A stretch of DNA of 64,000 bases from Siphonodentalium dalli (taxonomy: Eukaryota; Mollusca; Scaphopoda; Gadilida; Siphonodentaliidae), in NCBI GenBank assembly GCA_032622095.1, contig CP136061.1, forward strand, positions 52,835,762 to 52,899,761. Direction: 5' to 3'. Positions 1 through 63,867 of the stretch are shown here, piece after piece; within the stretch, counting starts at the first letter, position 1, and every line of letters starts with the position of its first letter. The position numbers and the translations under genes are program-made. Below the pieces are notes generated by a model, which ran no database searches, was not told where the DNA came from, and saw only the letters and a program-made list of their open reading frames with translations.

Positions 1-80
1 TTATTGGTGGTAATACTCTCACTGCCAACACTTGCGAGTTAACAGAGATATCATCATCCAGAACTGATGTGTCATTCACT
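1..80 (-). CDS. GAIN domain exon, partial at window edge
   Basis: Acceptor TTTCATTGTAG, phase 2 start. The peptide begins VNDTSVLDDDISVNSQVL and continues AVRVLPPI to the window edge. S(V/I)NSxVLxxxV is the GAIN motif just ahead of the GPS. A possible donor GTGAGA at 22-17 would end the exon at 23 instead; reading through also gives plausible GAIN sequence, so the 3' end is open. GPS and helices should follow beyond base 1. Confidence 0.72.
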
Positions 81-3000: not shown

Positions 3001-6000
3001 GTAAATAAATATACTGTTATATATCATACTCTTTATTTTTGGGCTTACTTACACAGGTATGATAGTATTGATGCTCTGATAGAATATGGCACTGAAGTAC
3101 AAATCCAGAAAATCTGCAAATAATTTAATCATTAGCCATCAATTCACAGAATACTGTACAGGGTTAATACACCTCACAATGAAAAAAATTCCATCGCTTT
3201 TCCACGACTTTCAAGATCCTCAACATTTTCGAGAAATTTCCAGGACCTTCCCCTTACAAATTTACATAACTTTTCCTCACCTATTCAAAAAATTAAAAAT
3301 AGATTTATGAAATAACTGTTCCATATTCTGCTCTTATAATTTCCTCAATTTGGCATCATCATCAATCATATTGCCCATAATAGGTGAGGGAAAACTTGAT
3401 GGTGTTGCAGAAAGCATGCACAGGTGATCCAACTACAGTAATGCGGGAAGTATATGACCCTTTAACCACAGCAGAATTATGGGAAATTTTTCAGGATTTA
3501 GTCGGAAATATGGCTTGTAGCCTTTCATCAAAAAGCTCTCACCGATGAATGCAACAAGCCATATTTCCGACTAAATCCTGAAATATTTCCCATTCTGCTG
3601 TGGTTTAGAGGTCGATTATTTAGGACAATACTGAAGTTTCCAGACAGCAGCCCACACGTATTTAGAAACTTTAAATATGCCAGCCTTGTTGCTTTCACTT
3701 GCCTTAGCTAAGAAATAGCTCAGAAAGATTGGATTGAATTATAAGAAATAACTCATGTTTCAATTAAAGTGATGTGAAACAATCCGATGAGGTGTTCAGA
3801 ACGGAATTACCAAGAATCATGCTGTAATAAGGTACTTTCTTAAATTTGATATAAAAATAGGCAGAAATTGTGTCATTGTTATAAACAAAATTCATGTAGT
3901 GACTATTGTTGGCGGAATTATTGCCATAATATTCATGCACAATTTGTCCCGAAAAAAAAGTCCATAATATGTATTTAAGTTTATGAGTTATACCTGAAAA
4001 GTTTGAATACAAATTTACTATAACACACTATAAAATTTGTCTTAAAAACTTTCTGTATATATTCAATTGAAACAAGAGTTATTTCTTAAATTCAGAACAT
4101 AATTTAGACATAAAGTGATTCATATACATGAATCCTGAGTTCATTGTGTATAAATTTAGAGCTTGTGAATTTCAAGCATAATATGTACCAATATTTATAA
4201 AGATAAATTTGTCATACAAGAAATATTCTGGTTCCATTTTTACATTTCGTTGTTGTACAAATAATATCAGTGAAAAAACCATTATGAGTTTTCCACTTTC
4301 TTGGCATACATGACTTCAATTGGAGGAATCTAAACTGAAAAACTGTGTTTGAAAAATCTTTTTGATAAATTTATTGACTGAAATTTAAAGTTAATCTTGT
4401 TCTATAGAAGAATATAAAACAATTTCATGGGTACAAACATGATCCCCATGAAAAGCTGGATATAAATGCGACTGGTTTGAAAAGTTAATAGTTTAACCCT
4501 TTCTGTCCTAAATAATAGTACACTTAGGAAATGTTCAGATAATTAGTTCCAACAAATGACCATATACATTTCCCACCAATGTATAGGAATCCTTCAGCCC
4601 TTGTATTACAGTAATGCCCTAAATAATCGACTCCTTAACCACAGCAGAATTATGGGTAACTTTTTCAGGATTTACTCGGAAATATGGCTTGTTGCCATTC
4701 ATTGGAAAGCTCTCACTGAGAGTTTTCCGACGAATGGCAACAAGCCATTGAGCTCTAAATAATCGACTCCTTAACCACAGCAGGTGAGAGCTTTCCGATG
4801 AATGGCAACAAGCCATATTTCTGACTAAATCCTGAAAAGTTACCCATAATTCTGCTGTGGTTAAGGAGTTGATTATTTAGGGGATTACTGTATCTGGGTT
4901 ATATTTTTGTCTGTCTTCTACTTATATTTCTTGAACATCCATCCAAATGAATAAAAGATCATTCCAATATATACTTTTACAACTGATAGGAGAATCCATT
5001 TAGTAAGGAAAGTGTGATCAGTGCCTTGGGTGCATGACCCCTTCTGCAATACTAACCACCATAGTTGTCCTTCAATGTAGCTTCTTCAAAAGTCACCGAC
5101 CCAGATGACTTCTTCATCCAATCTGGAAGCTTGACTCCTTCCTCTACCGGAAACTGTGTTCTCTTTGGCTTTGATTTTTTCACTTGCAAAACTGAGAGGA
5201 AATGTAGTAAACAGGGGCTGTCTATGGTGTATCCATATAGTCGTAGGTTAGTACCTCGATATTGATGAAATTTGAGACCATTTGACAATTACTGTAGGCA
5301 CCCATTACCAAGCCTTGAAATAGTGTGTCTGTCATTTGCAGAATGAGGTGTAAGCAGAATTAGGTCCCCAGAGGGTGAATTTGGTGATGCTAGCCCACTA
5401 TGCGGGGTTGCATCACTAAATTCACCCTCTGGGGACCTCATTCTGCAAACGACAGACACACTATTTCAAGGCTTGCCCATTACAGTAAGAACTGGGGGGA
5501 CCATGAACTTTTTGACACAACTTGGGACCGGGCTTACCTTCCAGGACCCCTATGCAATATCTCAGTTTGCATTCATAGTAATAATCTAATGTCGTGGTTT
5601 ATATGAATCATGATTGATTTATATTATTTTATTTAATGAAAATAATTTGTTTTAAGTTTTAATATTTTAGATAAATATTTAAAATAAGACACAACGATCT
5701 TATATTTTGTAATACAGCATTTTGTGAAAAACAATGTGGCAGGTAGTATTAATGAGTTTGCAATGGAAATTAGCTGGAGTAATCTGGAGTAATGCTATTT
5801 TTGTGTATAAATTTGTCATCTTCATTCAGACAGGGTTTCCGCTACTACGGCAGGCCGGCCGTCATTCCCCTCCCCAACCTTGACTTATTGGCCACAAAAT
5901 AGCCAGACCTAGCTCAGCCACTTTTTTACACAGGACGAGGGATCACCGAAACTGATGATTAACAGATTGCAAGGAATCCTGCCTGAATAAGACATGATCA

Positions 6001-9000
6001 GTAGCGCGGGCCACGTGCACAGTTGTCTACACCATCCTGAGTAATGCTTTATCGGCGAATGTTTAGTAGTAATTAATCAGCCTCTCATATTTTAATTTAC
6101 CATATATTTTCTGTCTATAAGTCCCAACTTTCTGACCCACTATTTCCCCTCAAAATGTGCATTACACATCGGTAAGTCATTAGGGGGCTGAATTCTGAGC
6201 TACAACCATGAACACAGGTGATGTCTGGCAGTTGCTGCAATGAACAGTGCAGACATTTTACCTCAAAACAAGATATGTATCAAAGAATTATTTAATTAAA
6301 AATAAAACAATTAAAATATTAATAGTTATTATCAGTGTATTTATTCCCTATCCAATTAATACAAAATTACCCATTATACTAATCCAGCATGAGTTCATCT
6401 CCGTCTGAGGAATAGCTTTTGATTTTACACCAAATTCTTTTGATTGGTACCAGAGCTGTTAAGTTTCACGGATTGTCCATGAGACACCCAGATTCCGCAA
6501 ATACGGATAACCCCCAATTTCTCCCGGATTCAGCAAAATCCCACATTCAAAATTCCAATTAAAAAACAATGTTTTTTTTATTTTTTGAACTCGTGAAATT
6601 GCGGGGATACCCTTATTTCCGGTACCGTAAATAACCACAAATCAACATTCACTTTTGATGTTCCCTCTGATTGAAAACTGATCAGTGGTGAACTGTGACT
6701 GATATTAATTGATTATCACACTCTGATGAAGCCACACGTATAAAGGGTGTATTGATTTTTTTGGGAGCACAACATAGACTGAGATTATCCTCAGGGTAAA
6801 CAATGCTTACCTATATTAGGTTTGACTACAGTTTGGACTATGTCTAGTTCCTGTACTTTCCTGCTGACTGGTCCACTGTACTTTTCAACAGCATCCAAGA
6901 GTTTGGCTATACCACTCTTCTGTTAAGGTCAAAGAAGAAAAGAACATGTTCAATCATTTGAAAAAATAACAATCAAATGGACACATATTTATTTACAAGG
7001 CTGCTTACAGTAATGCCCTAAGTAATCCACCCCTTAACCACAGCAGAATTATGGGTAACTTTTCAGGATTTAGTCGGAAATATGGCTTGTTGCCATTCAT
7101 CGGAAAGCTCTCGGGGAGAGCTTTCCGATGAATGGCAACAAGCCATATTTCCGACTAAATCCTGAAAAGTTACCCATAATTCTGCTGTGGTTGAGGGATC
7201 GATTACTTAGGGCATTACCTTAATTGGGGAGACCATTGCCAGGTTTAGCTTAAAACAGCAATAGCTTAGGCTCCACCAGGGCATAGTCAGTTAGTGCACG
7301 TGCCATACAGATACGATCATGTAATATTATTCAGGGCAGATGCAAATTTTTCAAGTATTAGATCCATATTTCAGGAAAATCATGTTCTATAATGTTGAAT
7401 CAGAGCTTCCTGAGATATTGTGATAAATAATTTAAAAAATATTATAAGTCATATTTTGCAAACCATTCCTATATGATAATTTTGATTGGATTGTTGTTAA
7501 AGGGGCATGACCAGAAAGTGTATCTTCTTCATCCTTATTACTCAAATGCAGAAAATGTCAAAACTTAAATGGTGTATCACTGACTCGCTCATTTTCCCTT
7601 CTAAAATATCAAATATATACCATAAAATATTTTGTTGTCATCAATCAGAAGTAATATCAATATGAATTTTTTTCTCTTTTCTACATAGCAGCTGTTATAT
7701 AAAAGATTAGCATGCCAAGTTGTAGAGGCCATTGTTATCTCCAGAAAAATATCGTTTTTTTGTGTCTTCTGTAAAATGTTATTTTCTGGGTTAACCCTTT
7801 ACACAACAAACCGGCCAAAACCGGCCAAATAAAGCTTCAACAGCCTAAAATATCTTCGGTCTGTCTCAATAGAACCATACAAATATGGATATCATTGGAA
7901 CCGGCTCCTTGACCACATTGTGATAGTTACAGTTATGCCCTGTGCCAATGCATTCTCTTATATATGCGAGTCGACCATAGGTCGCCTCGCATATATAAGA
8001 GAATGCATTGGCCTTTTTTTTAACACTTTTTACCATTTTTTCTTACATTCTTTAACAATTTTATAATTTTTAATGTGTTAAGCCAATGCATTCTCTTATA
8101 TATGAGAGGCGACCTATGGTCGACTCGCATATATAAGAGAATGCATTGGCACAGGGCCCTTCTGTTGGGTAAAGGGTTAATATAATTTCTTAGAAGCCCA
8201 CCGAGAACGGGTGTTTTCTGCTTCTCTACTTCACATGAGAAAACAACAGCACACACCACTTATCCACATTGCTGTGAACAGCTGTACATACAGTAATGCC
8301 CTAAATAATCGACTCCTTAACTCACTGAGAGCTTTCCGATGAATGGCAACAAGCTATATTTCCAACTAAATCCTGAAAAATTACCAATAATTCTGCTGTG
8401 GTTAAGGAGTCGATTATTTAGGGCATTACTGAACAGTTAAAGACAGTATATATAAAAGCTACCTTTTTGTTGATAACTTCCCAGTTGACCTTATTCTTAT
8501 CTTCAATTGTATTGCTGGCAATCTGGAGAAAATCCTGTAATAAAATTGTATCTCTCAGGACATTTAGCTAATGAAACTAACAGCTATTAAGAAAATGAAA
8601 GTGTCAATGATGCTGTAGCTCATATAATTTCATGTGTTACAGTCAATTGAGTGCTTAGGAATATGGAAAGTTGAAATAAGGTATGGTCTGTATGGATTGA
8701 ATTTTGAAATCCAATAAGGCCACTGACAGCCACGTTTTTTTTGCCTAATAACTAAAAATGACACGTTCCCATCTACATGTCAATGTCAACATCCATGACA
8801 AATTTCATCATGATCAGACCAACAGTACGAGTTGTAGCCCATGCTAACGGATTTACATTGTCTAATACTGAAAACCTGGTGATGGCCAATTCACCCCAAA
8901 ACATATCATTCCCATCTACATGTCAATGTCAACCTACATGGAAAATTTCATGATGATAAAAAAACGGTAAGACCTAGCTGTAGCCTGTTCTACTGAAGTT

Positions 9001-54000: not shown

Positions 54001-57000
54001 GTTCTGATTTCTGTCAGAATACCCTGACCAGGGTGCAATCCCCGGTCCGCTAGCACATGGCTGAGATTGTTACATTGAAGGTGATGCTCCGTTACGAGAA
54101 TCAAACCATGAACATAATTATAACACTTGTCCAATATCAATCTCTGTCAATTTATTAAAGTAATAATGACACTACTGTTTTTACATTGAATTGATAAACC
54201 CAGATGTAAATTGTAATCAACTTTTAAGTTCAAATGTGACCAACACATCTGGATCAGTTGTATTGAGCCATAAAACAACAAAGTATTATGAGAAAGAATG
54301 TAGTTCATAACATTATGATAAATAGCGTCAGTAGCGATGGTAATTATTGCTAAATAAATGTCCACGCGTAAATAAATTCCCACGAAATTAGGAGACTTCC
54401 GGTAACAAACACGTGGCATTTTTTATATCTGACAAATTATATCATACCTTATAGGTTCTATAATAATTACATAGATGAATTGTTCACAATAGTCTATGCG
54501 CCTCGTAAGGCCTTGACATGGCGGCTGATTATGGCGAAATGTCGATTTTCAGATTCGAAAAATATTAAGTTCGCCGCCTATTCGAAAACACGGAACAATT
54601 GTATGTTTTGAAGCGAAACGGTCCGTGAATTCGAAACAATAATTCTAAAAACTAACGCGTAGGCGACCAGTAATTATTGTATCGATAAATTGAATTTGTT
54701 GTCTAGTTGTTAAACGACAAATTCGGAACAATACTCCCTTTAGACTTCTCTCTTTGGTAGCAGAAAATAAACTGGCGGATTCAGTCGGTTATATTGGGAC
54801 TGCGCATGCGTGACTAATCCGAGCAAGACCGCGAGGTACTGTAGGCGACCACGCACAAAAAGTTAACCCCTTTTCTACTATGGTTTTACAAACGCAGGAC
54901 ATCTTTCCATCCATATAGTTCAGTGTGAACGGCTTCCTTTAGCGGAAATATAATATCTATCCACATAATACCCATGAAAATTAACTTTTAGGGGGTGAGT
55001 TTTAGGGGGTGAGTTTTAGGGGGTGAGTTTTAGGGGGTGAGTTTTAAAAGTTATGTGAACACGGTAACATAATAGTACTCAAAAACTCGCGTAAACGATA
55101 TAAACGTCACTCCAACTGTCAACCGTAAAATGACATAAATGTCATTCTACCAACCAAAGGGTTAACAGACTTTTATAAAATTTATCTCATTTCACATGAA
55201 ACCACTTCGATGGTCTTGGGTCCCTTTAAAGATAATGATACTTCCATGGTACTTACTGTGTACACATACAGCACCGTCCCAATACGCATCAGGGTTGGAA
55301 CATAAGCACTTGTCATTCACGCAAGTCAGGTTCGTCTTACAAGGATCCTCAGCATGGATAATACACAGGGTGTTGAAATCCTTTTCTAAGAACAGAGAAT
55401 ATGTTTTATGTAGCCAATACTCATACAGCATCGAGGAGGGTCACGCGACCATTTCCTTTCAGTTTGAACCGAATACACATTAATGTTCGTGAATCAAATC
55501 GAATCGAACATAATCAACGCAAGAAAGTATATAACTAAGGGTAGTTTCCAAGCAGGAAGGTTTGGTTTTATTGGGCACAATTCGCAGAAATAGTGGCTGC
55601 TTGTAACCAACAATTTAAAAACAAATACATCAATAAAATCTAGCCTCATTCTTGCAGCCAAACGATGCTTGATTGCTTTCTAACTATGTAAGCTATTGGA
55701 CACACTCTTGAGCCAACATGTAATTTTAGGCGTGTGAACTGAACTCATGGCCTTATGGCAATGTTTGACACTACATGATACAGAAACTGACAAGGTTTGT
55801 CGAATTTGGAATAATGCGCTTGGAAAACAGATTCTATGTCATGGAACTACAAACAAATTTATTGTTAGATCAAGTAGTTAGCAAATTAATCAATTAATTC
55901 ATTTTGTATCATGTATGGCCAATTAGAACATTTCCATAACGCCATCCATTGTCTGTATCAGATGTCTATCCTGAGGAATAGACACATTGAGCATGTTATC
56001 ATAATGTGTAATTGACCCAAACGTTGGATATCTGGGTGTGACAATTAGATATCCGTGATATCCAATTGTCACACCCAGGTATCCAAAGCTTTGGTAAATT
56101 ACACATTATTACAATGTGCCCATTCCAATCGCCGCAATTAATTTGGTGGGGCACGGGTGGGGGTCACACAACAACACAGCAATATCCATTTAAAAGACAT
56201 ATTAATATCCATTTAGAAAACGCTGATGCAGAAAATTCAGAAAAGTAGACTTGAAATCTTCACAGGACGAACATAGCACTGTCAAGTACACAGCACTAGT
56301 TTTCACAAAAAGTCAAATATATTAACATTCTTGTGAATATGGAGTGTGGTCGCATCAAATTTCACTCCACTAATGTCGTATTCATGTTCATGTTTGTGCA
56401 GTTTTAAATATCTGGACGGTTCAATTTACTTTGACATTCATCGCTCTCCTGTCTTGGTACATCAGTCTTTACTTTCCCCATGCACGCCGGGTAGTATTTT
56501 GTGAGACTGTATACTGTATACTCCCCAGAGAATGAATTTGGCGACACAAGCCCACTGTATGGGGTAGAGTGACTAAATTCACCCTCCGGGGACGTCATTC
56601 TGGAAATGTACGGCACCATATTCGTAGGCCTATGAGACTCTAAAAAAAATGTATAGACTCACTTAGATTGCATTTACTCTGGGATTCATCATAATAGTTA
56701 AATGAGTCTGGACACCTGCAGTAATCATTAACGCATGCCAGATCTCCCATGCAGGAGTCATCAGGGTCAGAGGCACACACCGTGTAGTTAAAACCATGAC
56801 CTAAGAAAAATGGTAGAAGAAGAATATGACATGAGTTCATAAATCAAATGTTCAAAATTATTTAATCCTTTGATAATTAAATACTCGCTGATGAGTAGTT
56901 ACATTAGGAAATGTTCAGATATTAGTAAGTTCCACAAATTAACTGCCTTGTTGAACTTGTATTCTGAATATTTCCTACCAATGAATAGGAATCCCTATGA

Positions 57001-60000
57001 ACTTGCATTATCTGTCACCTGCTTACAGTAGTGCCCTAAATAATCGACTCCTTAACCACAGCAGAATTATGGGTAATTTTTCAGGATTCAGTCGGAAATA
57101 TGGGCTCACTGAGAGCTTTCCGATGAATGGCAACAAGCCATATTTACAACTAAATCCTGAAAAATTACCCATAATTCTGCTGTGGTTAAGGAGTTGATTA
57201 TTTAGGGCATTACTGTATATTTACTGAACATCCCTGCTGATAAATATTTTTGTATGTGGTCTGACAAATGTGACACTGAAATCAACATTAAGTTGAATCT
57301 GATAAAACATTGCTATCTACAGCCAATGCTATATAAATAATGCATGGGTTTTACAGCAAACATTCAATTTTCCAGAAGTTCTAGACCCTGAAATTCCTAA
57401 TGTTCATTTCAAGTTCCGACATTTGATAAGATAGATATACGAACCCTGATTTTCTTAATTACTCAATTTTTCCTGGAGTGTTCAAAACCTGGATTTGCTA
57501 ATGTTTATGCTCCAGTTACCAGGTTATAGGTGACCACACCCTGCTATTTATAGCCAATGCTATCTTATAATGTTTTGGTGTTCCAGTACTGTCCAGGATT
57601 GGATTGGAATCCCTAATGTTCATTTTCCCATTTCCAAAATAGGTATAATGAAAGTGTCAATGACACTGTAGTTCAACATAGGGAGGAGTTAATTTTTATG
57701 CTGAGCAATGAAAGGAATGATAATGAAGAAGTCACACTGAAGATCCATATAAAGTTTGATCATTATCAGATGAGGGATATATGGTCTGTAGGGTACGCCA
57801 AAGGATTCAGTCATACAAAGAGTAAATTCCAAGATGGCCACTGGCGGCCTTGTTTTTCAACGAATTTCGGTCAAAATAGGAGGCTCCCATCTAGAGGTCG
57901 CCCCGAAGATCCATATGATGTTTGGTGATCATCAGATGAGGGATGTGGTCTGTAGGTGTGCCAAAGGATTTAGTCATGCAAAGAGAAAAAAATCAAAGAC
58001 AGCTGGCAGTGGCCATCTTTTTCATCGAAATTTGTTCAAATTTTATAGCTCCCATCTAGAGGTGATTCTAAACATCCCTGTAAATTTTCAAAATAATTCT
58101 CCAATAAATGCGGGCTGCGGGGATGTGCCGATGGATTCAAATTGGAAATACAAGAGGGCTGCTGGCAGCCAAGTTTTTCAACAAATTTTTGTCAATATAG
58201 GTGGCTCTCATCTAGAGATCACCCCGAAGATACATATGAAGTTTGGTGATGATCGGATGAGGGATGTGGTCTGCAGGGTGTGCCAAAGGATTTAGTCATG
58301 CCAAGATTAAAATCCAAGATGGCTGACGGAAGCATGTTTTTCAAAAATCTTTCAAATGTTATGGCTCCCATCTACAGGTGATCACAATGGTGCCTGCAAT
58401 TTTTTTTAATTATCTGGCCACAACTACGGGCTGTAGGGTGTGATGATGGATTTAATTTGAAATCCAAGATGGCTGCTGGCGGCCATGTTTTTCATAAAAA
58501 TTTGACAGCTCCCATCTACAGGTCACCCTGAAGCTACATATGAAGTTTGGTGAAGATCGGATGAGGGATGTGGCCTGTAGGGCATGCCAAAGGAAATTGT
58601 TGACGAACTAACACATGGAAGGAAAAATGGATGCCAACCCATGGCAATAGCTCAAACTTCACATTGTAAAGTTGAGCTAAAAACCATGCATTCCTAAACA
58701 TCCTCAAGTTTTCCAGTTTTCATATCCTTGAATTGCTAATATTCATTTTTCTGTCACGGAATATGTGTACGAACCCTGCCTTTTATAGTCAGTGCTACAT
58801 AAGTAATGCTTGGATTTTCCAGTATCGCTAAAAAAACGAATTTCTTCCAAAGGTCTCAAGAACATGAATTACCTAATGTTCATTTCCGGTTCCAGCAGTT
58901 GGCAAGATAGATATATGAATCCTGATTTCCTTAATAACTAAATTTTTACTGGAGTGTTCAAAACCTGGATTTGCTAATATTCATTTTCCAGTTAGCAGGA
59001 TAGGTGAAAAAACGTGGCCATTTATAGCCAGTGCTACATAAGTAATAGTTGGAGTTTCCAGCCTGCTAAAAAAGCTAAATTTTTCCAGGGGTATTAAGCA
59101 TCTTGCATTCTTGATTTTAAATTTCCAGTTCCAAGGATAGGTGTACGAACACTGCTTTCCTAAAAATCCTAATTTTATCGAGTTCTTGTTAAAACAAAGG
59201 CTCAACATCTGTAATGCTGTACTGAGTCTGGATTATTTGGGGGTTCCCTATTACCACAAGCATTATATCAGTCTCAGCCAATCACAACATAATATCGCCA
59301 AAGCCATGTAGCTATTTGGGCTAGTGTTGGAAAATCTATACAGTCCCAGATTTGCCACATAACTCATGAGAAGTTATTTATAGTGACACAGAGCTATTTG
59401 GTATAGGAAACACCAGCATTTTCTCCAGATGCAGCTATTTGAGTCGGGTTTACCCAGAACTGATTTTTTTCCTGAAGGTTTCAAATCATTGAATTCCTAA
59501 TGTTCATGCTCAAGTTCCGAGGATAGGTTACGAATCCTACCATTTATAGCCAATACGTATTATAAAAATAGAGTAATATTTGGATTTTCCAGTATCAATA
59601 AAAACCTAAATTATGCCAGGGGTTTCAAGAATCTGATATTCCTAATGTTCGTTTTCCAATTCCCAGGATAGGTGAATAAAAGTATCACAAATAAATAAAA
59701 ACATGACTTTATAATACAAACCTGTAGAACAAGCCTCGCCATCCCAATAGGCATCTGACGAAATGCACCCACACATTCCATTCGAACAAATGAGTTGACC
59801 AAAACACGGGTCCTCAGGTGTTGTTGAGCAGCTCTCAAAGATCTTCTTACCTGGAATAAGGGAAATGCATCATTAGAAATTAATAATCATTAATAATACA
59901 TAACAATGACATCAATCACTGCTCAAATAATAGTTACTATATAATTCAAGATATATAAAAGATGAACAATCAGTATCTATTATATTTTATCTTTTTCTTT

Positions 60001-63000: not shown

Positions 63001-63867
63001 TCTCATGCATTACAGTCAATTCAGCAAATAGGGATGCAGAAAGTTGAAAAAGGATAAATTTCCATCTGAAATTGTAACTACAGAATAACAAAGATTAATA
63101 CTCACTTGTAGTGCAAGCTGTTCCACCCCAGTAATGTGTGTCAGCACACTGACATTGGTTGTTAACACACGTCATGTCTCCTTTACATGGATTCACACCA
63201 GATGGAACGCCAACAGGACATGTTACAGTCACGTCTAGCTCTGATAAACAAAATTAAAACCATTTAAACAATGAATTTGTCAATGACACTGTAGCTCAAG
63301 ATGGAGAGGGGAGAATAATAATGTCATGCATTACAGTCAATTGAGCAATTAGGAATGTTGAAAAAAAGGATAAATTTCCATCTGAAATTTGTAACTACAG
63401 AATAACGAAGATTAATACTCACTTGTTGTGCAAGCTGTTCCACCCCAGTAATGTGTGTCAGCACACTGACATTGGTTGTTAACACACGTCATGTCTCCTT
63501 TACATGGATTCACACCAGATGGAACTCCAACAGGACAAGTTACAGTCACGTCCAACTCTGATAAACAAAATTTTAAACCATTTAAACAATGAAACTGTAG
63601 CTCAAGATGGAGAGGGGATAATATTACTGTCATGCATTACAGTCAATTCAGAAAATAGGGATGCGGAAAGTTGAAAAAGGATAAATTTCCATCTGAAATT
63701 GTAACTACAGAATAACAAAGATTAATACTTACTTGTTGTGCAAGCTGTACCACTCCAGTAATGTGTGTCAGCACACTGACATTGGTTGTTAACACACGTC
63801 ATGTCTCCTTTACATGGATTCACGCCAGATGGAACTCCAACTGGACAAGTTACAGTAACGTCCAACT
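1..63867 (-). CDS. Adhesion GPCR-like receptor gene, partial (26 exons placed; EB-like array, HormR, GAIN)
   Basis: Composite entry for a gene read from high to low coordinates; coding parts are the 26 exons listed separately. Seen: nine 135-nt tandem module exons, nine further cysteine-module exons (22 modules in all), two exons making one HormR domain, and six exons making most of a GAIN domain. Intron phases chain without conflict: 1-1 through the array, then 1-0, 0-0, 0-0, 0-1, 1-1, 1-2, 2-. Known: HormR plus GAIN precedes the GPS autoproteolysis site and seven helices in adhesion GPCRs, plasma-membrane receptors with a cleaved ectodomain. Inferred: a receptor with a long disulfide-rich N-terminal stalk. 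Signal peptide, GPS and helices are outside the window, so the GPCR part is not shown. A GAIN protein of another class is less likely because of the HormR domain. Phase-1 symmetric exons allow module gain or loss without frameshift. Confidence 0.85.
168..474. mobile_element. hAT-type hairpin MITE (family B), degraded copies
   Basis: Two core fragments (180-280 and 412-474) carry gaatgaggtccccagagggt-like sequence. The outer ends have decayed. Confidence 0.6.
540..690. repeat. taattac-rich low-complexity stretch
   Basis: Repeated aattaattacaattact words follow gagcagggatggg at 529, which resembles the outer end of some hAT elements. No partner end seen. Confidence 0.6.
999..1096. mobile_element. 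TA-type hairpin MITE (family A), single arm
   Basis: One arm of the family whose full form is an inverted repeat with ends CAGTAATGCCCTAAATAATC and an interior containing caagccatatttccgac. The second arm is missing. Confidence 0.75.
2010..2340. repeat. A-rich low-complexity stretch
   Basis: aaacaaacctgaacaaag occurs near 2036 and 2280, embedded in A-rich simple sequence. Confidence 0.75.
2406..2536. repeat. Near-perfect 58-bp hairpin
   Basis: agagcatg..gaaatacgccgatatagtgc on the left pairs with its inverse at 2479-2536. The loop is a GC-rich ctccgcttcgcgtcg segment. Confidence 0.85.
3053..3113 (-). CDS. GAIN domain exon, YxS(I/L) strand
   Basis: Exon of 61 nt, phase 1-2, acceptor AATTATTTGCAG, donor GTAAGT. 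The peptide is FLDLYFSAIFYQSINTIIP, matching the GAIN pattern VvvYksLxxLlP. It was found only because the phases demanded a 1-to-2 exon between 5057 and 80; both joints then gave good GAIN sequence. Confidence 0.75.
3436..3633. mobile_element. TA-type hairpin MITE (family A)
   Basis: Both arms are present but the outer end is degraded (CAGTAATGCGGGAAG). The arms pair around position 3535. Confidence 0.75.
4494..5030. repeat. Family D fragments around a family A MITE
   Basis: Left piece 4494-4608 (ttaaccctttctgtcctaaa, ggaaatgttcagata) and right piece 4891-5030 (tgaataaaagatcattccaa). The family A MITE at 4609-4890 sits inside the family D copy. Confidence 0.6.
4609..4890. mobile_element. TA-type hairpin MITE (family A), enlarged copy
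   Basis: Two outer arms plus an extra internal inverted segment near 4700-4790, so gagctttccgatgaatggc-type sequence occurs several times. The ends are CAGTAATGCCC and GGGATTACTG. Confidence 0.75.
5057..5191 (-). CDS. GAIN domain exon, subdomain B strands
   Basis: Exon of 135 nt, phase 1-1, acceptor ATTTCCTCTCAG, donor GTTAGT. It continues NI as VLQVKKSKPKRTQFP, then GVKLPDWM, then SVTFEEATLKDNYG. The in-frame TAG just past the donor (within GTTAGT) would make this look like a terminal exon, but the downstream exon at 3113 continues the domain, so splicing is preferred. Confidence 0.78.
5309..5475. mobile_element. hAT-type hairpin MITE (family B) with 8-bp target duplication
   Basis: Ends CAAGCCTTGAAATAG and its inverse, flanked by the direct repeat CCCATTAC (5301-5308 and 5476-5483). 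The interior is an inverted repeat including cagagggtgaattt. Eight-base duplications are the hAT rule. Confidence 0.85.
5831..5975. repeat. Isolated CAGGGTTTCCGC element end
   Basis: Starts CAGGGTTTCCGCTACTACGG, is GC-richer than its surroundings, and matches the terminal region style seen at 18.5 and 48.7 kb. The partner end was not found nearby. Confidence 0.5.
6451..6755. mobile_element. hAT-type element, partial copy of the 36257-37185 family
   Basis: Begins CAGAGCTGTTAAGTTTCACG and matches, in inverse orientation, the right end of the 36257-37185 element (ccggtaccgtaaata and the following 100 bases). The other end is lost. Confidence 0.7.
6811..6919 (-). CDS. GAIN domain exon, LLDAVE helix to NI strand
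   Basis: Exon of 109 nt, phase 0-1, acceptor CCTTAACAG, donor GTAAGC. The peptide has SGIAKLLDAVEKYS and ends VKPNI. LLxxLExxx followed by an NI(V)L-type strand is the conserved GAIN A-to-B transition. The next exon completes the codon to give NIVLQV. Confidence 0.82.
7008..7220. mobile_element. TA-type hairpin MITE (family A), near-perfect
   Basis: Arms of about 100 bp pair almost perfectly around 7115. The left flank is TA. The right end is slightly mutated (GGCATTACC). Confidence 0.85.
7791..8180. mobile_element. piggyBac-like MITE with TTAA target (family E)
   Basis: Starts TTAACCCTTTACACAACA and ends TGTTGGGTAAAGGGTTAA. TTAA duplication and CCCTTT ends fit piggyBac. Inside are two perfect small hairpins built on gccaatgcattctcttatat. 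Confidence 0.8.
8291..8431. mobile_element. TA-type hairpin MITE (family A), left arm shortened
   Basis: The right arm is complete and the left arm is truncated after the terminal 27 bases. It lies 31 bp from the GAIN exon at 8463, on the donor side. Confidence 0.75.
8463..8522 (-). CDS. GAIN domain exon, N-x-x-x..W segment
   Basis: Exon of 60 nt (20 codons), phase 0-0, acceptor TTTTCTCCAG, donor GTAGCT (non-optimal). The encoded peptide starts IASNTIEDKNK and ends NWEVINKK. This matches the GAIN stretch SNLLxxxNxxxW found in latrophilins and relatives. Confidence 0.78.
8591..9233. repeat. AGCTCAACTT-ended element with internal tandem repeats (family C)
   Basis: Opens gaaagtgtcaatgatgctg and closes with a gagttgtgcta variant of the terminal repeat. 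The interior has about three units of roughly 160 bp containing catctacatgtcaatgtcaa and a gatccgacc motif. Non-coding. Confidence 0.75.
9278..9480. repeat. TTAACCCTTTCTAT dispersed repeat (family D)
   Basis: Starts TTAACCCTTTCTATACTAAA and includes gttcagataataagttcaac near the end. The TTAA start suggests a piggyBac-like MITE, but a matching far end is not clear. Related copies are at 10006, 30183, 32683, 39404, 41856 and 56905. Confidence 0.65.
9799..9990 (-). CDS. GAIN domain exon, subdomain A helices (first part)
   Basis: Exon of 192 nt (64 codons), phase 0-0, acceptor TATTTTTCAG, donor GTAAGT. The peptide is helical, with TAGDIEASINILSKVAEVV and a following NNVTTDLTD. The D(I/V)xxSxxIL motif is typical of GAIN subdomain A. 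Reading on past the donor stays open for a while, but the spliced product joins cleanly to the next exon. Confidence 0.83.
10006..10215. repeat. TTAACCCTTTCTAT dispersed repeat (family D), beside a GAIN acceptor
   Basis: Begins TTAACCCTTTCTATATTAAA only 15 nt from the acceptor end of exon 9799-9990, so the branch-point region of that intron is repeat-derived. Confidence 0.7.
10830..11600. repeat. Duplicated intron segments with ccatacttaattgg
   Basis: 10850-10960 and 11420-11590 share caaaacttttcaagatttaa-like and tccatacttaattgg sequence in the same order; a weaker relative lies at 3170-3300. The rest of 9991-12930 is AT-rich intron with no gene seen. Confidence 0.55.
11921..18551. mobile_element. 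Possible hAT-like outer ends around the inverted-arm element
   Basis: The left end reads CATGGTTTCCGCTAG and the right end is the inverse of CAGGGTTTCCGCCAAG, with flanks ATTTATC and ATTTATG. CAGGGTTTCC ends and a near 8-bp duplication would fit hAT. Similar ends occur alone at 5831 and at 48726. Confidence 0.5.
12931..18310. mobile_element. Large element with long inverted arms
   Basis: Left arm (12931 to about 14400) and right arm (about 16900 to 18310) are diverged inverse copies: ggcaaatatggacataggtg on the left pairs with its inverse at the right end, and gcgttgtctttcgttt at 13313 pairs with its inverse near 17965. Each arm has two internal units with ccaagatggctgccaatat-like sequence. 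The 2.5-kb centre has no recognised gene. It fills most of the intron between GAIN and HormR. Confidence 0.8.
18715..19290. repeat. Short inverted-end element with gcgaagtc-rich interior
   Basis: Ends ccctaagctaggag and cccctagcttgg are inverse-related. The interior has ctcgccttcgattcggcgac and cttcggaag blocks that recur at 44.44-45.61 kb. Confidence 0.55.
19520..19614 (-). CDS. HormR domain exon, C-terminal half
   Basis: Exon of 95 nt, phase 1-0, acceptor TTTTTTACAG, donor GTAAGT. The peptide reads G-ISFRTCSQRGIWLNADYSLC and continues with VKDAIIAIEIA. R-x-C, G-x-W and a final C are the HormR hallmarks. Phase 0 at its end fits the phase-0 start of the GAIN exon at 9990. Confidence 0.83.
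19639..19789. mobile_element. hAT-type hairpin MITE (family B) with 8-bp target duplication
   Basis: Same ends as the copy at 5309. Flanking direct repeat AAGGTCAA (19631-19638 and 19790-19797). It lies 25 bp from the second HormR exon, on the acceptor side. Confidence 0.87.
21628..21730. mobile_element. TA-type hairpin MITE (family A), heavily T-to-C changed arm
   Basis: It aligns along its length with the family arm (taatgccctaaacaactgac, accacagcagaaccacaggc), but most differences replace T by C on this strand. One arm only. Confidence 0.65.
23087..23340. mobile_element. hAT-type hairpin MITE (family B), double form
   Basis: Two head-to-head core hairpins between one pair of ends. The flanks TACCTGAG and CACCTGAG match in 7 of 8 bases. 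Confidence 0.83.
23970..25593. repeat. AGCTCAACTT-ended element with about nine internal tandem repeats (family C)
   Basis: Opens tgaaagtgtcaatgacactg, closes aaagttgagcta. The word ccaagatgg recurs at about 24076, 24246, 24402, 24566, 24729, 24886, 25050, 25216 and 25371, giving a unit of about 162 bp. Two unit types (with or without the gaattttgaaat lead) alternate irregularly. Confidence 0.85.
26292..26435. mobile_element. TA-type hairpin MITE (family A)
   Basis: TA-flanked, left arm shortened, ends CAGTAATGACC and GGGCATTACTG. Confidence 0.8.
26935..27012. repeat. Family D fragment
   Basis: Contains gaccattctaatgtatac and agaatccattcac, inverted relative to the 9278 copy. Confidence 0.55.
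27248..27352 (-). CDS. HormR domain exon, N-terminal half
   Basis: Exon of 105 nt, phase 1-1, acceptor TTCTTAAAG, donor GTTAGT. The peptide contains YCPEEF, then LTWDTTLAGETQ, then YCHPRHT. This matches the HormR pattern C..W..T..G....C. The downstream exon at 19614 supplies the rest. HormR sits directly before GAIN in adhesion GPCRs and its role there is structural or ligand-related. Confidence 0.82.
27462..27674. mobile_element. TA-type hairpin MITE (family A), near-perfect
   Basis: Full-length copy with TA on both sides. The arms pair around 27570 with a loop of a few bases. It lies between the HormR exon and the last module exon. Confidence 0.87.
27986..28117 (-). CDS. EB-like cysteine module exon, last before HormR
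   Basis: Exon of 132 nt, phase 1-1, acceptor CATTTTGCAG, donor GTAAGA. Six cysteines with GDPCIGELVC and EWTGNKC (tryptophan kept, tyrosine replaced). The split codon A plus AG joins it to the HormR exon at 27352. Confidence 0.84.
28349..28476. mobile_element. TA-type hairpin MITE (family A), right arm deleted
   Basis: Left arm plus the terminal 25 bases of the right arm. It is directly abutted by an 8-bp-type hairpin element starting at 28483. Confidence 0.75.
28483..28911. mobile_element. hAT-type hairpin MITE (family B), long double form
   Basis: Outer ends CAAGTCTGGAAATAG and CTATTTCCAGGCTTG enclose two degraded core hairpins separated by about 170 bp of other sequence. The target duplication is no longer clear. 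Confidence 0.7.
28962..30155. mobile_element. 1.2-kb insertion flanked by a 13-bp direct repeat
   Basis: AGTTGGAAATAGG occurs at 28950-28962 and 30156-30168. The inserted piece begins gtttaat and ends attaaac, with cccggttc/gggaacg-rich subterminal sequence at both ends. Open frames inside (for example 29656-29973) have no recognised domain. Type unknown. Confidence 0.55.
30183..30401. repeat. TTAACCCTTTCTAT dispersed repeat (family D), inverted
   Basis: Reverse orientation: gttcagataataagttcaac near the start, ending in the inverse of ctatagtaaatggattctc. Confidence 0.65.
30425..30875. mobile_element. hAT-type hairpin MITE (family B), long double form
   Basis: Same architecture as 28483-28911. 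Ends CAAGCCTGAGTTTAG and CACTCAGGCTTG. Confidence 0.7.
31182..31394. mobile_element. TA-type hairpin MITE (family A), near-perfect
   Basis: Full-length, TA on both sides, arms pairing around 31290. Confidence 0.86.
31786..31914 (-). CDS. EB-like cysteine module exon (diverged)
   Basis: Exon of 129 nt, phase 1-1, acceptor GTTTTCCAG, donor GTAAGT. Six cysteines with NQCHGDLVCVSRFCNC and YWNGQTC. A piggyBac-like MITE begins only 35 nt upstream in gene sense (31949). Confidence 0.82.
31949..32429. mobile_element. piggyBac-like MITE with TTAA target (family E variant)
   Basis: Starts TTAACCCTTTCAGTGCCAGG and ends in its inverse. It shares the gccaatgcattctctta hairpin at 32311-32378. It begins 35 nt from a module exon. 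Confidence 0.78.
32683..32775. repeat. Family D fragment
   Basis: Contains agttataaaagtatacattg and tattcatctggaggga. Both ends missing. Confidence 0.6.
33543..33629. mobile_element. TA-type hairpin MITE (family A), right arm only
   Basis: Ends in GGGCATTACTG followed by TA. It stops 16 bp short of the module exon at 33646, so it sits almost on the donor site of that exon. Confidence 0.78.
33646..33777 (-). CDS. EB-like cysteine module exon (diverged)
   Basis: Exon of 132 nt, phase 1-1, acceptor TAATTTTCAG, donor GTATGT. Six cysteines; QLACIEELVCQHGECVC replaces the usual DPCxGDLxC core, and the tail is FWDGDSC. This is the most diverged core of the array. Confidence 0.8.
34015..34107 (+). 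repeat. tRNA-like promoter segment (possible SINE or tRNA pseudogene)
   Basis: Contains tggccgtgtgg, close to an A box, and ggttcgaatcccacc, a good B box, spaced about as in a tRNA. No clean cloverleaf is apparent by eye. The sequence acatgctactgtgccatata occurs on both sides (33897, 34687), so it may lie in a duplicated block. Confidence 0.5.
34551..34686. repeat. Perfect 66-bp inverted repeat with 4-base loop
   Basis: Left arm 34551-34616, loop acaa, right arm 34621-34686. The arms are perfect inverses over all 66 bases, including gaggtgagtggtcataac. It would form a long hairpin. Confidence 0.9.
35016..35229. mobile_element. TA-type hairpin MITE (family A)
   Basis: Full-length with TA on both sides. 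The inner right arm is partly scrambled. Confidence 0.83.
35684..35820. repeat. Near-perfect long hairpin
   Basis: Arms of about 65 bp around a ctcg centre (taaatttgattcacaa ctcg ttgtgaatcaaattta), with a few mismatches outward. Confidence 0.85.
35879..36055. mobile_element. TA-type hairpin MITE (family A)
   Basis: TA-flanked. The left arm is interrupted by a deletion near 35945 and the right arm is intact. Confidence 0.82.
36257..37185. mobile_element. hAT-type non-autonomous element with perfect 8-bp target duplication
   Basis: Ends CAGACCTGTTAAGTTT and the inverse of CAGAGCTGTTAAGTTT. The flanks are a perfect direct repeat GTACATAT (36249-36256, 37186-37193). The element is 929 bp, AT-rich, without a coding region I can recognise. 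It lies 86 bp from the five-module exon, on its donor side. Confidence 0.83.
37272..37925 (-). CDS. Five consecutive EB-like modules in one exon
   Basis: Exon of 654 nt (218 codons), phase 1-1, acceptor ATTTTACAG, donor GTAAGA. It encodes five complete six-cysteine modules of about 43 residues each with no intron between them: tails FWNSTHC, YWNGSHC, YWDLDSC, YWGGQIC and YWNGVTC. Elsewhere each module has its own exon. Intron loss or insertion of a processed multi-module copy would explain this. Confidence 0.88.
37988..38191. mobile_element. TA-type hairpin MITE (family A)
   Basis: TA-flanked, arms pairing around 38090. It lies just upstream (gene sense) of the five-module exon. Confidence 0.83.
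38530..38745. repeat. Fragment of family C internal repeat
   Basis: One to two units resembling those at 57.7-58.6 kb (aatgagggatgtggactct, ctcccatctagag). No ends visible. Confidence 0.65.
39229..39357 (-). CDS. EB-like cysteine module exon (diverged)
   Basis: Exon of 129 nt, donor GTGAGT. Two acceptor AGs lie 13 nt apart; the upstream one (TTTATTTCAG) gives phase 1 and is chosen because it matches all neighbours. Six cysteines with QDPCYGDLSC and FWGGILC. Confidence 0.82.
39404..39635. repeat. TTAACCC dispersed repeat (family D)
   Basis: Starts TTAACCCATTCTTTACTGAA, contains aaaagtatacattggaatgg, and ends with an inverse of the ggaaatgttcagataat block. Confidence 0.65.
39815..39886. promoter_or_regulatory. 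Cluster of four CACGTG E-box palindromes
   Basis: TCACGTGA at 39815, ATCACGTGA at 39834, GCACGTGATC at 39867 and ATCACGTGG at 39878, within 72 bp. Such sites bind basic helix-loop-helix-zipper factors (MITF/TFE or USF types). They lie at the edge of the region holding the THAP fragment; what they control is not evident. Confidence 0.45.
40294..41107. repeat. Four dispersed copies of aacgctctttatt
   Basis: Copies at 40762, 40958 and 41092 in one orientation and its inverse aataaagagcgtt at 40295; an imperfect one is at 40733. Spacings are irregular. On the minus strand each contains AATAAA, and the 41092 copy overlaps the stop of the THAP fragment, so a polyadenylation role is possible. Confidence 0.6.
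41100..41264 (-). pseudogene. THAP-type zinc-finger N-terminal fragment
   Basis: A methionine-started reading gives MPYKCSVFGCGRSSD, then LYSFPNDVRLRAIWRDFC, and stops after 54 codons. C-x4-C, the F-P pair and the tryptophan are THAP hallmarks. The distal C-x2-H half and the AVPTIF box are missing, and no convincing donor continues it. THAP domains bind DNA in host factors and in P-element-like transposases. It lies inside an intron of the receptor gene on the same strand. Likely a transposon exon or relic; an unspliced first exon of a nested gene is possible. Confidence 0.55.
41856..41985. repeat. Family D fragment
   Basis: Starts TTAACCTGCTCTATTCTGAA and contains ctataaaagtatacattg. With the 39404 copy it brackets the compositionally distinct 39.64-41.85 kb region. 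Confidence 0.6.
42485..42622 (-). CDS. EB-like cysteine module exon (diverged)
   Basis: Exon of 138 nt, phase 1-1, acceptor CATATTTCAG, donor GTAAGT. No methionine opens the frame. The phase-1 reading gives six cysteines with QDPCPGDLNCIDDLCVC and IWDGSKC, an unmistakable module. Confidence 0.82.
42820..43160. repeat. Two tandem intron units
   Basis: ggttcccatgctggttga and a following gtgc(t/c)aagtttt recur about 160 bp apart. Non-coding, just upstream of module exon 42485-42622 in gene sense. Confidence 0.6.
44303..44367. repeat. Paired GC-rich micro-hairpins
   Basis: gcccgctaaagcgggc at 44306 and gcccgctttagcgggc at 44349, each a perfect palindrome with the same preceding cccggca, 43 bp apart. 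Function unknown. Confidence 0.8.
44446..45608. mobile_element. Inverted-end element related to 18715-19290
   Basis: Left end cctcagcctaggggttcaga, right end gccttgtgagctgaggtc (inverse-like). Shares agggagacttcaggg and gcgaagtc-type words with 18.7-19.3 kb. No coding region recognised. Confidence 0.5.
46240..48109 (-). mobile_element. Pogo/Tigger-like DNA transposon relic
   Basis: Imperfect terminal inverted repeats: the left end opens CAGTCAATTTCGGTTAATAG after TA at 46238, and the right end is the inverse of CAGTCAATTCCAATTAATCG. CAGT ends with a TA target fit Tc1/mariner-pogo; on the right the flank is CA, probably a mutated TA. A CENP-B-type DNA-binding domain is encoded inside on the minus strand. 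The element is 1.87 kb and lacks a recognisable DDE catalytic region, so it is internally deleted. Confidence 0.6.
46511..46882 (-). pseudogene. CENP-B/Tigger-type helix-turn-helix transposase fragment
   Basis: Open frame of 123 codons. Recognisable pieces are VEKALVTWFDNTRHRDIPMS, LLTEKSKDFAKLL and GWLSRWKKRNDIKWKR, matching the HTH_Tnp_Tc5/CENP-B second DNA-binding helix bundle (WFxxxR..IPiSG..L..KA..F....F..S.GWL.R(F/W)K.R). After it come an acidic run and non-conserved sequence, then a stop, with no DDE domain. The frame fills part of the 46240-48109 element, so it is a decayed transposase rather than a host gene. Confidence 0.65.
48608..48726. repeat. Isolated CAGGGTTTCCGC element end (inverse)
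   Basis: Contains aaggaaatggctac, ttttctcctga and a terminal gcggaaaccctg, matching 18434-18551. A solitary end. Confidence 0.6.
49519..49920. mobile_element. piggyBac-like MITE with TTAA target (family E)
   Basis: Near reverse complement of the 7791-8180 copy, with the same TTAACCCTTTACCCAACA ends and two hairpins (49545-49617, 49700-49767). Confidence 0.8.
51255..51775. repeat. Two tandem units inside the 50-55 kb element
   Basis: tctgaggtacctatgtatca, atgagatcatgtcagaag and agctgcgccca each occur twice about 235-240 bp apart. Arrangement is direct. Non-coding as far as visible. Confidence 0.75.
53301..53325. repeat. Poly(C) tract of 25
   Basis: Uninterrupted C run within the 50-55 kb element, producing spurious glycine-rich frames. 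Length is sensitive to sequencing error. Confidence 0.9.
54989..55045. repeat. 14-bp minisatellite, four units
   Basis: Unit agggggtgagtttt repeated four times without change. Confidence 0.9.
55257..55385 (-). CDS. EB-like cysteine module exon (diverged)
   Basis: Exon of 129 nt, phase 1-1, acceptor TGTTCTTAG, donor GTAAGT. Six cysteines with EDPCKTNLTCVNDKCLC and YWDGAVC. It is separated from the next exon downstream by a 12.6-kb transposon-filled intron. Confidence 0.85.
56515..56635. mobile_element. hAT-type hairpin MITE (family B), degraded copy
   Basis: Core inverted repeat with ctccccagagaatgaatttg and its partner near 56575-56610. It lies 28 bp from the module exon at 56663. Confidence 0.6.
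56663..56800 (-). CDS. EB-like cysteine module exon (diverged)
   Basis: Exon of 138 nt, phase 1-1, acceptor TTTCTTAG, donor GTGAGT. Six cysteines with DDSCMGDLACVNDYCRC. The tail YYDESQSKC replaces the usual YWxGxxC and is slightly longer. Confidence 0.83.
   Translation of the reverse strand, partial: VMVLTTRCVPLTLMTPAWEIWHALMITAGVQTHLTIMMNPRVNAI
56905..57020. repeat. Family D fragment
   Basis: Contains ggaaatgttcagatat and ccaatgaataggaatcc. It abuts the family A MITE at 57026. Confidence 0.55.
57026..57215. mobile_element. TA-type hairpin MITE (family A)
   Basis: TA-flanked, ends CAGTAGTGCCC and GGGCATTACTG. Confidence 0.82.
57300..59690. repeat. Diverged tandem repeats around family C insertion
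   Basis: Units of roughly 150 bp recur before 57646 and after 58681, with phrases such as cctaatgttcattt and tatagccagtgctacataag. The block splits cleanly where the family C element sits. Non-coding intron sequence. Confidence 0.7.
57647..58680. repeat. AGCTCAACTT-ended element with diverged internal repeats (family C)
   Basis: Opens aatgaaagtgtcaatgacac, closes gtaaagttgagctaa. About five diverged units with cccatctagaggt and gatcggatgaggga. It is inserted into a block of other tandem repeats (57300-57646, 58681-59690) that continues on both sides. Confidence 0.8.
59722..59850 (-). CDS. EB-like cysteine module exon (diverged)
   Basis: Exon of 129 nt (43 codons), phase 1-1, acceptor TTATTCCAG, donor GTTTGT. 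The peptide has six cysteines with EDPCFGQLICSNGMCGC and YWDGEAC. Splice sites and symmetric phase match the rest of the array; sequence identity to the tandem copies is limited to the module skeleton. Confidence 0.85.
60161..60379. mobile_element. TA-type hairpin MITE (family A)
   Basis: TA-flanked, with a small extra inversion near 60210-60230. It lies between the tandem exon array and the first diverged module exon. Confidence 0.82.
60547..60681 (-). CDS. EB-like cysteine module exon, tandem copy 9 (last of the array)
   Basis: Exon of 135 nt, phase 1-1, six cysteines (TVSC at the first position, a serine change relative to TVTC in the others), donor GTGAGT. It is the last of nine near-identical exons; downstream modules are clearly diverged. 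Confidence 0.87.
61192..61326 (-). CDS. EB-like cysteine module exon, tandem copy 8
   Basis: Exon of 135 nt, phase 1-1, tail YWGGIAC, donor GTGAGT. Its neighbouring intron toward lower coordinates, ending at 60682, is almost identical to the one at 61327-61836. Confidence 0.87.
61837..61971 (-). CDS. EB-like cysteine module exon, tandem copy 7
   Basis: Exon of 135 nt, phase 1-1, tail YWGGIAC. It differs from the copy at 61192-61326 by only a couple of bases. The 645-bp spacing and matching introns show a recent block duplication. Confidence 0.87.
62137..62271 (-). CDS. EB-like cysteine module exon, tandem copy 6
   Basis: Exon of 135 nt, phase 1-1. The tail reads YWDGNAC instead of YWGGTAC, which is closer to the diverged modules downstream (for example YWDGEAC at 59.7 kb). 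Donor GTGAGT; acceptor TTTATCAG. Confidence 0.86.
62489..62623 (-). CDS. EB-like cysteine module exon, tandem copy 5
   Basis: Exon of 135 nt, phase 1-1, with canonical splice sites. It encodes the full module with ELDVTVTCPVGVPSG leading into NPCKGDMTC. The following intron (toward lower coordinates) contains unique sequence of about 130 bp not seen in the other tandem introns. Confidence 0.87.
62806..62940 (-). CDS. EB-like cysteine module exon, tandem copy 4
   Basis: Exon of 135 nt, phase 1-1, donor GTGAGT, acceptor TTTATCAG, six cysteines, tail YWGGTAC. The spacing to the next copies is 317 and 300 bp, repeating the pattern 300 and 317 bp upstream. Confidence 0.87.
63106..63240 (-). CDS. 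EB-like cysteine module exon, tandem copy 3
   Basis: Exon of 135 nt, phase 1-1, donor GTGAGT, acceptor ATCAG. It carries the variant bases shared with 62489-62623 (acgtctagct at the 5' end), so the two are paralogues from duplication of a block of about 617 bp. Confidence 0.87.
63423..63557 (-). CDS. EB-like cysteine module exon, tandem copy 2
   Basis: Exon of 135 nt, phase 1-1, six cysteines, donor GTGAGT, acceptor TTTATCAG. The tail is YWGGTAC. It is nearly identical to the copy at 62806-62940, and the upstream intron shares the same repeat-derived sequence. Confidence 0.87.
63733..63867 (-). CDS. EB-like cysteine module exon, tandem copy 1
   Basis: Exon of 135 nt (45 codons), phase 1-1, with acceptor TTTATCAG and donor GTAAGT. 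It encodes one six-cysteine module with the core NPCKGDMTCVNNQCQC and a tail YWSGTAC. It is the most upstream exon placed in the window, and its tail serine differs from the glycine of most sister copies. Being extracellular and disulfide-rich is inferred from the cysteine spacing. Confidence 0.85.

Follow-up and report, generated by a model that had tools for sequence, protein, structure and literature searches.

What protein do the cysteine-rich modules on the minus strand of this locus belong to, and do they form the extracellular arm of a membrane receptor? The window, i.e., the whole stretch of 64,000 nucleotides from Siphonodentalium dalli (C1:52835762–52899761; a C1 coordinate equals the window position plus 52835761), was analyzed together with its surroundings at C1:52797001–53104300, which comprise 307,300 bases with an N content of 0, and nine contigs (2.23 Gb) were covered by the genome searches. 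We lean toward the view that the window is the middle of a single minus-strand gene of ∼293 kb, which would encode a giant adhesion GPCR with up to 136 EB-type modules (∼6,000 residues) followed by HormR, a GAIN domain with GPS, and a seven-helix (7TM) domain.

A six-frame scan revealed modules of the type C..C..C..C-x-C..C on the minus strand of the window, where 22 six-cysteine modules are distributed over 18 exons from 28117–27986 to 63867–63733. Nine of these exons are of the LDVTVTC type: the one at 63733–63867, which is flanked by AG/GT and readable in phase 1-1, and eight near-identical ones (63557–63423, 63240–63106, 62940–62806, 62623–62489, 62271–62137, 61971–61837, 61326–61192, and 60681–60547). 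They are followed by EB-like module exons at 59722–59850, 56663–56800, 55257–55385, 42485–42622, and 39229–39357, by an exon with five EB modules at 37272–37925 (PF01683, 29.5 bits; cut-off 24.3), and by further module exons at 33646–33777, 31786–31914, and 27986–28117, the last of which is nearest to the membrane. Two HormR exons, at 27248–27352 (phase 1 to 1) and 19520–19614 (phase 1 to 0), jointly give an HRM match with E 2.2e-7. Five GAIN exons complete the set: exon a at 9799–9990 (phase 0 to 0), with similar exons near paralogous receptors; exon b at 6811–6919 (0 to 1); exon c at 5057–5191 (1 to 1); a probable small exon at 3053–3113, i.e., C1:52838814–52838874 (1 to 2); and exon d (2 to 0), which occupies positions 1–80 and crosses the left edge (C1:52835715–52835841). 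The first-pass annotation had described the same number of modules, with position 63867 as the outer limit of its chain, a position at which the last module exon in the window begins. Its order of modules, HormR, and GAIN was recovered with exon phases that join without a break; the phase-compatible order of its 26-exon chain held, and the exon count is 25.

The exons of the receptor end were called with a splice-site score derived from the module exons and with phase checks. This yielded two HormR, five GAIN, two GPS, and seven 7TM exons plus one exon for the end of TM7, whose phases join without interruption. A GPS match (PF01825, 42.1 bits) lies at C1:52821803–52821907 on the minus strand, 13.9 kb past the left edge of the window. 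The GPS exon at C1:52821785–52821908 together with its neighbor at C1:52827451–52827497 reaches 55.7 bits (E 7e-15; cut-off 22.5), and in a longer spliced protein the profile still scores 51.8 bits (E 1.2e-13). The GPS motif directly precedes the 7TM domain, whose eight exons, including the TM7-end exon, span C1:52797174–52820958. Positions 201–246 of the 7tm_2 profile match at C1:52801140–52801268 (minus strand), and in the spliced C-terminal part of 587 residues, PF00002 gives 172.6 bits (E 1.2e-50) over profile positions 4–250 of 250, with matched exons down to C1:52797230. In the same 587 residues, GAIN (PF16489) scores 39.1 bits (E 7.1e-10; cut-off 26.5). Over exons a–c (E 9.1e-8) this match extends only to profile position 156, and with the small exon and exon d it covers positions 76–208 of 210. 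The small exon, ranked second by splice score among eight candidates, was picked by phase and by a motif that we take to be GAIN-like.

Because GPS and seven helices, both on the minus strand, lie beyond the left edge of the window, the locus is that of an adhesion GPCR. This had been proposed from the window alone, together with the expectation of exactly these downstream elements, and it is now supported by GAIN, GPS, and 7tm_2 matches above cut-off. Among the domains named at that stage, EB (in the multi-module exons) and GAIN were confirmed by profile, and HormR (PF02793) scores 31.6 bits alone and 25.8 bits when part of the longer spliced protein (cut-off 26.2). The comparison with vertebrate architectures in which the receptor had been placed found no support; the genome holds dozens of single-frame 7tm_2 genes. 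These genes, of ∼400–1300 residues and spread over many contigs, are presumably Methuselah-like, and clusters of 7tm_2 genes were seen at C4:77.1–77.3 Mb, C5:185.4–185.6 Mb, C7:187–189 Mb, and C8:148.8–149.0 Mb.

The nearest PDB match of the 7TM domain is ADGRL3 (7sf7, E 2.7e-41), nearly tied with ADGRD1 (4.8e-41), and the GAIN-GPS part matches ADGRB2 best. Judged by its sequence, the seven-helix domain looks like the latrophilin/ADGRD kind. At the predicted cleavage site the sequence reads H-Y-T-NFAILM, so that the HL(T/S) triad retains its first and last residues and has Tyr in place of Leu; self-cleavage at the GPS is uncertain because of this substitution. The putative tethered agonist would begin with TNFAILM, and an excerpt of PMC13197933 describes the HL/T triad as overlapping the tethered agonist. 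In the TM7-end exon the reading ends after 19 residues, indicating either a very short C-terminal tail or a further exon that was missed.

How far does the module array extend? Outside the window it continues for ∼190 kb beyond the right edge, with single-module exons at C1:52901104–53058342, a giant exon of 8,901 nt with 69 modules at C1:53064320–53073220, and four module exons beyond it, up to C1:53090515. Altogether, the array comprises 64 exons with 136 modules on the minus strand of C1:52863747–53090515, and the last 10 kb of the stretch analyzed (to C1:53104300) contain no module. When used alone as a genome-search profile, PF01683 recovered only part of the locus, and we therefore built a model from the locus's own modules. 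A regular-expression search of C1:52797001–53104300 detected 56 module exons with 128 modules; a profile derived from these added six minus-strand exons, and two more lie further upstream. All 64 exons have AG/GT at the chosen sites, lengths divisible by three, and exactly six cysteines per module, e.g., 414 cysteines in the 69 modules of the giant exon, in which an 86-residue unit of two modules is repeated over most of the length. An in-frame donor is present in every full-module exon, both in the 56 found by regular expression and in the eight found by profile.

A phase 1-1 reading is possible for all 64 module exons, which is partly by construction since only phase-1 sites were sought for the 56; for the other eight, 1-1 also ranked first among the splice pairs of all phases. 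With a generic score that takes the best site in any phase, 55 of the 64 exons are 1-1 (phase 1 at 57 acceptors and 62 donors), and in the remaining nine, one of the two ends has a better-scoring site in a different phase. The minus strand contains 131 six-cysteine matches, 56 of which are bounded on both sides by phase-1 splice sites, compared to two matches on the plus strand and three in 20 shuffles (500-base blocks, summed), none of them with splice sites, at thresholds derived from the same module exons. The chain of 80 exons keeps one strand, one domain order, and compatible phases throughout and reads 6,575 residues with 0 stops, to which the TM7-end exon adds 19. The HormR-GAIN-7TM part is very likely joined to at least the modules of the window, and we consider it fairly likely, as an inference from this chain, that all exons belong to one transcript. 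Initial exons were sought upstream of C1:53064400, and neither a start exon nor a signal-peptide exon turned up there as far as C1:53104300.

Decayed copies also occur within the array. An LDVTVTC module that is truncated and lacks a donor (C1:52912229–52912357) and a tail fragment (C1:52911180–52911242) represent dead duplicates, and a partial module of the giant-exon type lies reversed on the plus strand, outside the chain, at C1:53018569–53018724 (+182808 to +182963 of the window). Since the locus holds such copies, one of them without a donor, some of the array exons may be dead as well.

Gaps between adjacent module exons have a median of 1.9 kb and reach 19.4 kb, and the largest one bears on an alternative that we regard as rather unlikely, namely that the locus consists of two or more head-to-tail genes, one of them for a secreted EB-array protein built from the giant exon and another for an EB adhesion GPCR whose arm is limited to the nearer modules, tens in number and with those of the window among them. 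In favor of this, the 25 kb from the giant exon to the next cluster, with the 19.4-kb gap, carry a single module exon, and EB-like modules unlinked to any receptor do exist elsewhere on C1 and C3. However, this single exon (C1:53058202–53058342) sits in the very gap that would separate the genes, the module exons of the chain all share strand and 1-1 reading, and we saw neither a module exon that ends in a stop nor a clear initial exon, the latter within the region upstream of C1:53064400 in which such exons were sought.

To see whether the receptor has relatives, we considered a 7TM protein search of the genome, in which 150 of 196 candidates were scored. It revealed at least 11 other loci with 73–90% identity in the TM6/7 exon, each with GAIN or GPS matches nearby. 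Four receptors were sampled for EB-like modules in stretches of 9–10 kb each, and two of them, L024 and L025, have such modules upstream on the same strand: a single module at a distance of 44 kb from the GPS at C1:150631022 (L024), and three modules at a distance of 101 kb from the GPS at C1:150465728 (L025, a receptor outside the 11). Because of these distances the linkage of the modules to the receptors is only putative; one of the four modules forms a clear 1-1 exon, one is ambiguous, and two have no splice pair above threshold. The samples taken near the other two, L040 and L041 (9 kb), contain no EB-like modules.

Further EB-like modules, some of them clustered, were seen without a linked receptor at C1:0.56–0.69, 79.5, 81.4–82.3, 84.7–85.2, 97.8, and 98.4 Mb and at C3:211.1 Mb. 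Several GPS/EB matches come in pairs of equal or near-equal score, 1–2 Mb apart (C7:39517196 and C7:41512343; C5:109016091 and C5:110786624; C6:51652647 and C6:52603560), and perhaps represent large duplicated blocks or retained haplotypes. Repeated myosin-head matches at C4:274.2–275.5 Mb, several with equal scores, look like tandem myosin genes. The first 300 bases of C3 hold 47 copies of CCCTAA, a chromosome end of the TTAGGG type, whereas arthropods usually have TTAGG; no CCCTAA copies were seen in the 300 letters inspected at the start of eight further contigs and at the end of one. Profile searches of the genome for the arthropod families PF00372 and PF00379 gave no match, nor did one for PF14830 of molluscs, although such negatives, obtained without a positive control, do not prove absence; overall, the genome is probably not that of an arthropod.

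What kind of module is it? The giant exon matches EB (PF01683) with 361.4 bits over 53 stretches (cut-off 24.3). Single modules match weakly, with 8 of 17 at E≤10, a best E of 0.0017, and 15.5 bits for the first module. An AlphaFold2 model of the first three modules of the five-module exon (36 alignment rows) has a mean pLDDT of 89.8 and predicts short beta strands in each bead. A sequence comparison of the five-module exon with the PDB gave no match at E≤10, a fold search returned none at E≤0.001, and the best VIA-align Z was 3.0, among knottin, Dickkopf, and TNFR-like cysteine-rich chains; in view of these scores we do not claim a fold relative.

Modules outside the giant exon and the LDVTVTC group differ strongly from each other. 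In the LDVTVTC group itself, the 21 near-identical exons of the locus comprise 20 distinct DNA sequences that encode ten distinct proteins, with dS 0.138, dN 0.017, and dN/dS 0.12, and the 29 two-module units of the giant exon give dS 0.245, dN 0.100, and dN/dS 0.41; all values are pooled pairwise estimates that gene conversion could bias. Taken from their sequences, these ratios indicate that the near-identical modules are under purifying selection. The intron flanks of the 21 exons diverge by ∼0.5, more than the exons themselves, but since they were compared without gaps this is no clean yardstick.

The diversity of the modules bears on a further alternative, in which the receptor is real and its array serves as a multi-ligand recognition surface for adhesion, self/non-self discrimination, or microbe binding, with a length selected for the diversity of binding sites and not for force. 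Both the strong divergence among the modules outside the giant exon and the 21 near-identical exons (19–38% identity to the first in 17 modules) and the presence of at least 11 paralogous receptor loci would agree with this, yet most of the array, i.e., most of the 69 modules of the giant exon plus the 21 exons, is near-uniform and under purifying selection, which fits a spacer better than a diverse sensor; we consider the recognition surface possible but doubtful. It is very improbable that the array is a functionless repeat, either in decay or inflated by the assembly: the truncated copy at C1:52912229–52912357, the fragments, the plus-strand relic at C1:53018569–53018724, and the very recent origin of the tandem copies would suit it, but the 64 exons are free of stops over ∼6,000 codons, dN/dS is well below 1, and no N interrupts the stretch.

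For a single giant receptor, the mechanism that we infer as most likely is that of a long arm which passes on force. The disulfide-rich beads would form a stable tether of great length and attach it to a partner, either on a different cell or in the matrix; a pull on this tether would load the GAIN domain, the loaded domain would free the tethered agonist (TNFAILM...), and the freed agonist would switch on G-protein signaling. Since all module exons are readable as symmetric 1-1 exons, the reading frame survives the gain, loss, or skipping of modules, and evolution, perhaps also splicing, could thereby adjust the length of the arm and its binding sites. Seven potential mechanosensitive adhesion GPCRs are reviewed in PMC8878244, an excerpt of which also states that the length of the N-terminal fragment modulates mechanosensitivity in fly CIRL.

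Compared to known receptors, the locus shares the order HormR-GAIN-GPS-7TM with the latrophilins/CIRL (ADGRL), its 7TM domain matching ADGRL3 and ADGRD1 almost equally well, but its arm is built from EB modules; RBL lectin and olfactomedin domains were absent when Pfam was run on the giant exon, the five-module exon, and the C-terminal part of 587 residues, with the N-terminal end outside these scans. With ADGRV1/VLGR1 it has in common a giant arm made from one repeated domain and a similar size, as at least 6,575 residues are predicted here and ∼6,300 residues are given for ADGRV1 in the excerpt of PMC8878244. The repeats of ADGRV1 are Calx-beta and those here are EB; no Calx-beta was detected in the same three Pfam scans, most single-module exons lying outside them. 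EGF-TM7 receptors (ADGRE) likewise place tandem cysteine-rich beads before GAIN and 7TM, but their beads are of the EGF type and few in number, whereas those of this locus are of the EB type (PF01683) and amount to 136. The tandem EGF repeats of ADGRE are mentioned in that part of PMC8878244. Nematode and insect EB-module proteins (PF01683) resemble the locus in their arrays of six-cysteine EB beads. To our knowledge, known EB-module proteins are secreted or single-pass; in contrast, the EB array described here is on the same strand as, and in frame with, an adhesion GPCR. Among the matches listed in a literature search whose scope largely left aside subscription literature, we found no report of an EB module joined to an adhesion GPCR, and a list of adhesion GPCR domains in an excerpt of PMC12716839, which ends in "etc.", does not include EB by name.

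If one transcript spans the whole array, the receptor would rank with the longest known GPCRs and would offer a natural experiment on the way in which tethered-agonist receptors are tuned by the length of their ectodomain; as the exon phase would leave this length freely adjustable, one could then test how sensitivity depends on the length of the tether. Such a design of a long chain of beads could act as a long tether or a mechanical sensor. Tentatively, we propose that a single transcript specifies an adhesion GPCR which, with its 136 EB beads and at least 6,575 residues, would exceed ADGRV1 in length and whose 64 symmetric, skippable module exons would tune a force-sensing tether by duplication and alternative splicing, and that its receptor family, with at least 11 paralogous loci of which some may have EB arrays of their own, might represent a lineage-specific sensory system.
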